NCBI GenBank assembly: GCA_902580275.1
Contig: CACHJZ010000007.1
Span: 1 to 64,000 of the forward strand
From: an uncultured Pelagibacteraceae bacterium
GTDB taxonomy: Bacteria > Pseudomonadota > Alphaproteobacteria > Pelagibacterales > Pelagibacteraceae
Length of the DNA: 64,000 nt
Direction of reading: 5' to 3'
Numbering within the stretch: the first letter of the stretch is position 1; every line of letters begins with the position of its first letter. Both the position numbers and the translations under genes were made by a program. Below are positions 1-2,906 of this stretch, piece after piece. A model generated the notes under the pieces. The model ran no database searches and had not been told where the DNA came from. It saw only the letters and a list, made by a program, of their open reading frames with translations.

Positions 1-35
1 ATAACAACTATAAGTAGAATGACGAAATATTCCAT
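1..35 (-). CDS. 5' end of a possible membrane protein (partial, runs off the window)
   Basis: Minus-strand ATG at 33-35 reads MEYFVILLIVV..., hydrophobic N-terminus, open to the window edge; same strand as the GT/phosphoesterase pair. Confidence 0.35.
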   Translation of the reverse strand, partial: MEYFVILLIVV

Positions 36-99
36 AAATTTAGATAGGTTAATTTTGCATCATTACACTTTTTAATGCAAACAAATTAAGAAAAATTAG

Positions 100-1107
100 C
101 TAACGATTTGGTGAAATATTATTAAAAAATATTTTTGCTGTTTCTTCCCATGTGAATTTTTTTGCAAATTCAAGACAATCATTTCGATCAACTTTTAAAG
201 CTTTATAAGCTGAAACTTTAAGATCATTATCTAGACAATCTATTTTGGAGCCTTCAAAAATATCTTTAGGACCTGGAACGGGATACGCAGCAACAGGCGT
301 ACCGCAATTTAAAGCCTCAGTAACTACAATTCCAAATGTATCTGTTTTACTTGGGAATACAAAAACATCAGAAGATGCAAAATATGATGCAAGTACACCA
401 TTTGTTTTTTCTCCTAAAAATATATCTCTAGGGAATTCTTCTTTTAATTTTTTTAAATCGGGTCCTTTTCCTATTATTATTTTTGTACCTTCTAAATCAC
501 ATTCTAAAAAAGCTCTTATATTTTTCTCAACAGCAACTCTTCCAACATAAATCCAAATTGGTCTTTTGTGGGGTAAATTAATTTTTTGAGGTTTTTTAAA
601 AGCTCCGTGATTTCCTCCTCTGGTCCAGGTAATCATTTTATTATTATCTATACCTATATCGATTAATTCTTTTCTCATAGATTCTGTTGTTACTAAAATT
701 CTCTCAGCCTTATTATGAAAGTTTGCTAAGAATTTTTCAGCCCATTTTGCAGGTATAATTGGAAAGTATAGTTTAAGATATTTATCAAACCTTGTATGAA
801 AACTCGTAGTAAATTTTAGATTATTTTTTAAACAATATCTTCTTGCCATAATCCCAATGGGACCTTCGGTAGCGATATGAATTGCATCAGGTTTGATTTT
901 CTTTATTAAACTACCAACTCTTGGCCATACATTTATAGATAACCTTATTTCATTATATTTAGGCATCGGAAAGGTTAAAAATAAATTTGGAGTAATATAT
1001 TCTATAGTATGACCTTGTTCTTTTAAGATATTACCTGTTTCATGCAAGGTTCTTACGACACCATTTACTTGTGGAAAATATGCATCTGTAGCAATTAAAA
1101 TTTTCAT
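100..1107 (-). CDS. GT4-family glycosyltransferase, candidate diacylglycerol glycosyltransferase (Agt-like)
   Basis: N-terminus MKILIATDAYFPQVNGVVRTLHETG and C-terminal FPSKTDTFGIVVTEALNCGTPVAAYPVPGP are typical of GT4 enzymes; adjacent to PlcP-like gene. Confidence 0.8.
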   Translation of the reverse strand: MKILIATDAYFPQVNGVVRTLHETGNILKEQGHTIEYITPNLFLTFPMPKYNEIRLSINVWPRVGSLIKKIKPDAIHIATEGPIGIMARRYCLKNNLKFTTSFHTRFDKYLKLYFPIIPAKWAEKFLANFHNKAERILVTTESMRKELIDIGIDNNKMITWTRGGNHGAFKKPQKINLPHKRPIWIYVGRVAVEKNIRAFLECDLEGTKIIIGKGPDLKKLKEEFPRDIFLGEKTNGVLASYFASSDVFVFPSKTDTFGIVVTEALNCGTPVAAYPVPGPKDIFEGSKIDCLDNDLKVSAYKALKVDRNDCLEFAKKFTWEETAKIFFNNISPNR

Positions 1108-1110
1108 TAA

Positions 1111-1923
1111 CTATGAAGCTTTTTTTAAGTCTTCAGTTTTAATAGGTTTAATTATATCTTTAGTGTCTAAATATTGTTCTCTTATTTTATCCCAATATAA
1201 TATTTCAAAACTACCATCATAATTTTCAGCTAATGCAGTACAAGATTCAACCCAGTCTCCACAATTTAAATAATTGACACCATTAAAATCTCTATCCTCA
1301 GCATGATGGATGTGACCACAAATTATTCCATCAAACTTTTTTCTTTTTGCATAATCTGAAACTGTTTTTTCATATTCACCAATATATTTGACTGCGTTTT
1401 TGACTTTATACTTTAAAAATTTTGCAAGGGACCAATATTCTTTTCCTCTCAACCTTCTAAAAAAGTTAATTATTACATTAAATTGTAACAATAAATTATA
1501 TGCTATTGATCCAATTTTAGATAACCATTTAGCATGTTTCATTACTCCATCCCAAGCATCACCATGGACAACAACATATTTTTTTCCATTATTTGTTTCA
1601 TGAATTACTCTATTTAACATATGAATATCACCAAAATGCATTGGAATAAATTTCCTTAACATCTCGTCATGATTACCCATTATGTAGAACACTTTAGTCC
1701 CATGTCTTGCTTTTCTTAAAATTTTTTGGATTACATCATTATGTTCTTGAGGCCAAAAAAAACTTTTTTGCATTGCCCAGATATCAATAATGTCTCCTAC
1801 AAGATAAAGATTTTCAGATCTTGAATTTTTAAAAAACTCTAAAATTTTATTCGCCTGACAACCTTTGGTACCTAAATGCAAATCAGAAATAAATATACTC
1901 TTATATTTTAATATATTAGGCAT
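1111..1923 (-). CDS. plcP: Calcineurin-like metallophosphoesterase of the LpxH/PlcP type
   Basis: ISDLHLGTKG, LVGDIIDIW, MGNHDE, VVHGDAWD, ICGHIHHAED metal-binding motifs; PlcP rather than LpxH favoured because LpxI is encoded at 38004-38798. Confidence 0.75.
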   Translation of the reverse strand: MPNILKYKSIFISDLHLGTKGCQANKILEFFKNSRSENLYLVGDIIDIWAMQKSFFWPQEHNDVIQKILRKARHGTKVFYIMGNHDEMLRKFIPMHFGDIHMLNRVIHETNNGKKYVVVHGDAWDGVMKHAKWLSKIGSIAYNLLLQFNVIINFFRRLRGKEYWSLAKFLKYKVKNAVKYIGEYEKTVSDYAKRKKFDGIICGHIHHAEDRDFNGVNYLNCGDWVESCTALAENYDGSFEILYWDKIREQYLDTKDIIKPIKTEDLKKAS

Positions 1924-1937
1924 TTAAAAATCTTTTT

Positions 1938-1955
1938 TTTAACACAACTGTAACA
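1938..1955 (-). promoter_or_regulatory. Putative Pho-box-like direct repeat TGTTACA-GTTG-TGTTAAA facing the metallophosphoesterase gene
   Basis: Read on the minus strand: two heptamers sharing TGTTA-A, 11-bp period; half-sites identical to those at 1985-2002. Confidence 0.5.
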
Positions 1956-1984
1956 CGAATCATGTAATTCTTATCTCATTCAAA

Positions 1985-2002
1985 TGTTACAAATTTGTTA
2001 AA
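1985..2002 (+). promoter_or_regulatory. Putative Pho-box-like direct repeat TGTTACA-AATT-TGTTAAA facing the DAGK-family gene
   Basis: Half-sites identical to the minus-strand element at 1938-1955; 11-bp period. Confidence 0.5.
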
Positions 2003-2021
2003 AATTATTTAAGAAATAATT

Positions 2022-2906
2022 ATGTTATATTGTTTAATTTATAATCTAAACTCTTCTTCAGGAAGAAAATCACAATTCATAAATAGAGTTTTATCTAAGT
2101 TAAAAGAAAATAATTCTGTAGACTACTTTGAGACAAAAACAACAAATCAAGCTAAAGAAATTTTTAGAAATTTTAATCAAAAAAAATACGATCGACTAAT
2201 AATAGCTGGTGGCGATGGATCGGTATCTTTTGCAATTAATGAACTAATTAAAAATGATTTTAACTTTAAACACGATTTTGCCATAGGTTATATACCCGCT
2301 GGTACAGCAAATTTACTTCAAGCTGAATTATCAATGAATAAAAAAGTTGATGATATAGTTAATGTATTGATTTCAAACAATTATAAAACCTCTAATCTTG
2401 TAAAAATTAACGAAAGTTATTTCTTTTTAATGGCTGGTATAGGATGGGATGCAAAAATTGTTCATTCAATTAATTCAAAAATTAAAAAGATTCTTGGTAA
2501 AATTATATTCGGCATCAAGGGTTTTCAGTATTTCTTATTTATGAATAATAAAAAATTAAATGTTACTTTTGATGGACAATTTTATCAAGCAGACTGGATA
2601 TTATCCTCAAATACCAAATATTACGCTGGCCATCATAAAATAAATAAAACAAATATTTTTGAAGATAAATTAGTTACTTATATATTTAAGGATTTGACTA
2701 GAATCAATTTATTATATTCCATATTTTTAATAATCCTTAATGGCGACTTAAGTAAAAACAAAAATGTTATTACTACTTATTCTCAAAATATCACTATTGA
2801 AGGAAATGATTTAATACCTGTTCAAATTGACGGGGATAATTTTGGTTCATATAAAAAAATTCATTTAAATCAGTCAAATAAAAAAATGAATTTTCTTGTA
2901 AAATAA
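2022..2906 (+). CDS. Diacylglycerol kinase catalytic-domain family (YegS/LCB5-like) lipid kinase
   Basis: YNLNSSSGRK, GGDGSVSFAINEL, GYIPAGTANLLQAEL motifs; 294 aa. Confidence 0.8.
   Translation: MLYCLIYNLNSSSGRKSQFINRVLSKLKENNSVDYFETKTTNQAKEIFRNFNQKKYDRLIIAGGDGSVSFAINELIKNDFNFKHDFAIGYIPAGTANLLQAELSMNKKVDDIVNVLISNNYKTSNLVKINESYFFLMAGIGWDAKIVHSINSKIKKILGKIIFGIKGFQYFLFMNNKKLNVTFDGQFYQADWILSSNTKYYAGHHKINKTNIFEDKLVTYIFKDLTRINLLYSIFLIILNGDLSKNKNVITTYSQNITIEGNDLIPVQIDGDNFGSYKKIHLNQSNKKMNFLVK

Follow-up and report, generated by a model that had tools for sequence, protein, structure and literature searches.

The window analysed here, a stretch of 64,000 nucleotides of DNA, begins at the edge of the SAR11 phosphate-starvation island. 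We consider it likely that the genes at this edge form a Pho-regulated lipid-renovation module in which a plcP-agt gene pair probably swaps membrane phospholipids for sugar lipids, and in which the product of a divergently transcribed diacylglycerol (DAG) kinase gene would recycle surplus DAG. Phosphate-linked lipid renovation by plcP-agt is already known; what has been least recognised is that the kinase may belong to it as a recycling partner under Pho control. Few cells in the ocean are as abundant as SAR11 bacteria, and the use of sugar lipids in place of phospholipids would lower their need for phosphorus.

From the observations described below, we infer the following course of events. 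At low phosphate, PhoR-PhoB, whose genes are placed just off the window, would activate the promoter region between plcP and the kinase gene. PlcP would cleave phospholipids, releasing DAG and the head group with its phosphate, and Agt would add glucose or glucuronate to DAG, giving rise to phosphorus-free glycolipids. Surplus DAG would be converted to phosphatidate by the DgkB-like kinase, which would avert DAG toxicity and let the membrane revert to phospholipids. The analysis anchors the locus in the phosphate island, revises what its fourth gene is, predicts which SAR11 bacteria make glycolipids without ornithine lipids, and names DAG recycling as a missing step, assigned to a gene that the authors describing the HIMB59 island listed without a direct phosphorus function (PMC10734472).

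Layout of the locus and its phosphate island

The first base of the window is also the first base of contig C7 in genome G000 (1.18 Mb, 95% complete). The three clustered open reading frames given in the initial annotation were all found at their positions, and the families proposed there agree with the domains detected, i.e., Glyco_transf_4/Glycos_transf_1, Metallophos, and DAGK_cat with a weak YegS_C. The features are:

1-35, minus strand: 5' end of phoR (phosphate-sensing histidine kinase), 11 codons (MEYFVILLIVV...), remainder past the contig end
100-1107, minus strand: agt (GTcp orthologue), GT4 diacylglycerol glycosyltransferase, 335 aa
1111-1923, minus strand: plcP, PlcP-clade (phospholipase C) metallophosphoesterase, 270 aa
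1937-1955, plus strand: Pho-box-like site TTTTAACACAACTGTAACA, toward the DAG kinase gene, 24.4 bits
1985-2003, minus strand: Pho-box-like site TTTTAACAAATTTGTAACA, toward plcP-agt, 23.9 bits
2022-2906, plus strand: DAG kinase, DgkB/YegS type, divergent from plcP, 294 aa

Both plcP and agt read leftward on the minus strand and are spaced by 3 bp, and a gap of 98 bp separates plcP from the divergent, rightward-reading kinase gene. A scan of named genomes with PlcP gave uncultured Pelagibacteraceae single-cell genomes at 94-100% identity, which places the window in SAR11.

The partial hydrophobic reading frame at 1-35 had been suspected to be a fourth lipid gene. This candidate was rejected. In the near-identical genome G026, which encodes an identical PlcP, the frame continues as a gene for a histidine kinase of 381 aa (L033), followed by pstS at the contig end. 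The full-length protein of a close relative (L034) carries HisKA and HATPase_c domains and scores 279 bits against the PhoR model TIGR02966, i.e., below its cut-off of 334; the response regulator of the relatives passes the PhoB cut-off. A histidine kinase gene with a start nearly matching that of the frame at 1-35 follows agt in G026 and about 18 further genomes of the genus. Because the histidine kinase of the relatives matches this start as well as the PhoR model and is encoded in an island with PhoB, the frame is assigned as the beginning of phoR. In the relatives, the gene order after agt is phoR-c11-pstSCAB-phoU-phoB up to the limit of the fetched stretches, and some add sixA, ppk and ppx. 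The c11 gene, which in SAR11 relatives resides between phoR and pstS and thus left of window position 1 (12712-13320 in L034), encodes a protein of about 202 aa that is conserved and looks secreted, and for which neither a Pfam nor an NCBIfam match was found.

A comparable gene set has been described for versions C-E of the flexible phosphate island of HIMB59 (PMC10734472), which share with the window island DGK, 'LpxH', 'RfaG', PhoR-PhoB, pst, ppk, ppx and sixA. The remaining genes differ from those of the window island, and the versions vary. Judging from this gene set, which we likened by gene names, the HIMB59 'LpxH' and 'RfaG' are probably mislabelled plcP and agt.

Predicted Pho boxes between the divergent genes

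A 19-bp Pho-box matrix was trained on pstS promoters of relatives (ten distinct sites); the window contributed none. When both strands of the 64 kb were scanned, the two best matches proved to be the two boxes in the gap between plcP and the kinase gene, and the next site, outside the gap, reached 14.9 bits. The best score of 24.4 bits was attained by no site in 400 kb of simulated sequence. The link to the Pho system claimed in the initial annotation is thus backed by the two top-ranking predicted boxes and by the phoR-pst-phoB flank in relatives. On these grounds the locus probably belongs to the Pho regulon, and induction by phosphate starvation is predicted.

The box facing plcP scores 14.9-26.9 bits in most SAR11 relatives and is weak (4.9-7.9 bits) in one subclade. 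The box facing the kinase gene is kept at the same distance in the subclade of the window and missing from more distant SAR11 bacteria, HTCC7211 among them. The facing boxes lie 29 bp from each other, so the two promoters probably overlap, and either may exclude the other. A sigma-70 promoter scan of the 98-bp gap gave no match, a result that speaks neither for nor against a promoter there. In the gaps between kinase gene and plcP outside SAR11, the classical Pho consensus gave sites in only two of eight cases, at p ~0.01-0.02.

Comparison with HTCC7211 and ornithine lipids

We regard genome G445 as that of HTCC7211 or of a strain nearly identical to it. The lengths of its pstS, pstC and pstB genes fit the published HTCC7211 table (PMC3030594; end minus start), that of pstA fits from an internal start, and its glycosyltransferase is 334 aa long and carries 15 of 15 residues, in line with what has been published for HTCC7211 GTcp. 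The order of genes (L152) is valS-ilvD-manC, DAG kinase gene (reverse), plcP-agt, olsA and olsB (reverse), phoR, c11, pstSCAB, phoU and phoB. The suspected correspondence with the HTCC7211 locus is borne out as orthology of all three genes, which also keep their order, with pairwise identities of 79% for plcP (PB7211_983), 82% for agt (PB7211_960) and 60% for the kinase. Likewise shared are the flanks valS-ilvD-manC and phoR-pst-phoB. Unlike the window with its two boxes, HTCC7211 has only the Pho box facing plcP, and, also unlike the window, it has agt and phoR separated by olsB and olsA. The matches of these reverse genes, to OlsB models and to the acyltransferase half of OlsF, remain under the curated cut-offs. 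In the window, as in G026, phoR follows agt directly, with no ornithine-lipid genes between them. Since no OlsB-family gene (PF13444) was found in the 95%-complete window genome, the organism is predicted to form glycolipids but no ornithine lipids; the family is present in one of 121 genomes. In an independent study, genes for a DAG kinase, a metallophosphoesterase and a glycosyltransferase of group 1 are listed as present in HTCC7211 alone of the SAR11 genomes available at the time, and as enriched in water from the Sargasso and Mediterranean seas (PMC3686209).

A DgkB-type kinase associated with plcP

The gene at 2022-2906 has the sequence, the predicted fold and the catalytic residues of a DgkB-type DAG kinase, in agreement with the family proposed initially. 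The protein matches DAGK_cat (E 7.6e-24, 84 bits) and weakly YegS_C and contains the motifs GGDG and GTxN as well as Asp270 at the DgkB catalytic position. Its residues D65, D215 and D270 align with D68, D216 and D271 of DgkB, and DgkB E273 is replaced by Asp; these four DgkB residues (roles and numbering) we take to be the catalytic Asp and the Mg-site acids. In the AlphaFold model (pLDDT 92), the best PDB matches by E-value are the DgkB structures 2qvl/2qv7 (E 1.8e-23). E-values for sphingosine kinase are weaker, whereas its query TM-scores (0.77-0.84) are similar to or higher than those for DgkB (0.74-0.78), so the fold does not fix the substrate. A gene for DgkA was not found in the 95%-complete window genome.

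What such an enzyme might do is illustrated by Gram-positive bacteria, in which the soluble DgkB returns DAG to phosphatidate and is no longer needed once lipoteichoic acid synthesis is blocked (PMC10865820). The likeness to our proposal consists in a soluble DAG kinase combined with a pathway that releases DAG from phospholipid. In the Gram-positive case, the DAG arises from lipoteichoic acid assembly and there is no role in phosphate starvation, which makes this an analogy only. In HTCC7211, homologues of phosphatidate phosphatase are reportedly absent, which makes PlcP the likely source of DAG (PMC4796936).

Across 399 genomes of the genus, plcP and the kinase gene were each found in 130 and both in 128, with two genomes having plcP only and two the kinase only, counts that are non-independent due to relatedness and physical linkage, so that a Fisher value for them serves as description only. 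Three of these four exceptions lie at contig ends (plcP-only G036 and G343, kinase-only G069). In the fourth, G435 (L155, G435:C2:135000-150000), a liv-type ABC transporter set replaces the plcP-agt-phoR-pst island beside the kinase gene and both boxes are intact, which points to a boundary of recombination close to the 98-bp gap. The co-occurrence could reflect mere linkage in one island. Outside SAR11, a divergent DAG kinase gene within ~200 bp was detected at 8 of 55 plcP loci, in Rhodospirillales-like and other Alphaproteobacteria. No DAG kinase accompanies plcP-agt in the related family f2, so the kinase is not obligatory.

These data bear on an alternative that we regard as rather unlikely, namely that plcP-agt acts as proposed and the kinase is an unrelated neighbour in this flexible island or acts on another substrate, be it PG as proposed for YegS, ceramide or another lipid. 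It draws on the TM-scores of sphingosine kinase, which match or exceed those of DgkB, on f2 and other lineages that do without the kinase, on G435, which keeps the kinase without plcP, and on the HIMB59 authors, who saw no direct phosphorus function in the kinase (PMC10734472). It is at odds with the restriction of the kinase to plcP genomes with just two exceptions, with the recurrence of the divergent arrangement in other Alphaproteobacteria, with the Pho box toward the kinase gene in the window subclade and with the conserved DgkB catalytic residues. We judge DAG recycling to be the best reading of the kinase, roughly twice as likely as other substrates or a bystander role. Re-phosphorylation of DAG, as the module would entail, seems at odds with saving phosphate. 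We see an even chance that the kinase is, more specifically, a dedicated third enzyme of PlcP-Agt lipid renovation in Alphaproteobacteria, serving as a Pho-controlled safety valve that turns PlcP-made DAG into phosphatidate, and that in the window subclade the two facing boxes switch it together with plcP-agt, where the promoters may compete for polymerase and so set the split between sugar lipids and phospholipids.

Assignment of the phosphoesterase to PlcP

Where the initial annotation had left a choice between LpxH and PlcP, family scores and phylogeny resolve the gene at 1111-1923 as encoding PlcP and not LpxH, with a predicted phospholipase C activity on PG/PE. The protein contains the motifs SDLHLG, GD, GNHD, HGD and GHIHH, and D14, H16, D44, N84, H85, D86, H120, H204 and H206 are invariant among seven SAR11 homologues. 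The metal motifs are complete, with GNHD in the window protein versus GNRD in solved LpxH. Against the two LpxH models it scores 43.4 bits (cut-off 190.35) and 55.2 bits (cut-off 134). A true LpxH (>220 bits) is encoded in 9 of 12 genomes of other PlcP-bearing bacteria, seven of which also show a separate PlcP-like match at ~33-50 bits. In the tree, a 100/100 split divides PlcP from LpxH, the window protein falls among the PlcPs, and paralogues from single genomes land on opposite sides; assayed PlcPs of named strains are outside the rows of this tree, HTCC7211 being compared by pairwise identity only, and branching within the LpxH group is unreliable because its rows are partial and long-branched. 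The outcome that would have spoken for LpxH, clustering with the true enzymes, thus did not occur.

It is very improbable that the pair is lipopolysaccharide machinery, with LpxH as the phosphoesterase and a glycosyltransferase for core or O-chain sugars, as the LpxH/RfaG annotation of the related HIMB59 island (PMC10734472) would have it: the top NCBIfam and PDB sequence matches of the phosphoesterase are indeed LpxH, but its scores fall far under the LpxH cut-offs, no protein above cut-off occurs in any of 121 relatives, genomes with both genes carry a separate LpxH, the tree divides the two families, and the pair stands in a Pho setting. This reading was rejected on family scores, single-genome paralogues and the tree. 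The orthologous plcP of HTCC7211 rescues a Phaeobacter plcP mutant (PMC4796936). As in the window, agt directly follows plcP in the PlcP-Agt type 2 neighbourhoods of marine bacteria, and Pho boxes are reported in such clusters (PMC4796936); the relevant main-text section of that paper makes no mention of a divergent DAG kinase such as the window has.

Glycosyltransferase and sugar donors

The GT4 glycosyltransferase predicted initially at 100-1107 holds up as Agt, a close relative of the assayed HTCC7211 GTcp, and glycosylation of DAG is predicted from its sequence. It has the GT4 domains and the motifs GRVAxEKN and FPSxTDTFG, and all 15 residues named for GTcp (PMC8231724) are identical in position, comprising catalytic His104/Asp256, the donor site, the DAG site and a dimer residue. 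When expressed in E. coli, HTCC7211 agt gives rise to MGDG and GADG (PMC4796936). In the window genome, a galU-like gene and a gene of the UDP-glucose dehydrogenase type (ugd) overlap by 4 bp (L158 1498-3608, G000:C2). This pair is a likely source of UDP-glucose and UDP-glucuronate, and both donors are therefore plausible.

One SAR11 subclade (L045, L046 and L047) has Ala in place of Gly259 in the glycosyltransferase, and the Pho box of its plcP is weak too. The alanine mutant of Gly259 in GTcp is almost inactive, and the glycosyltransferase of this subclade may differ in activity.
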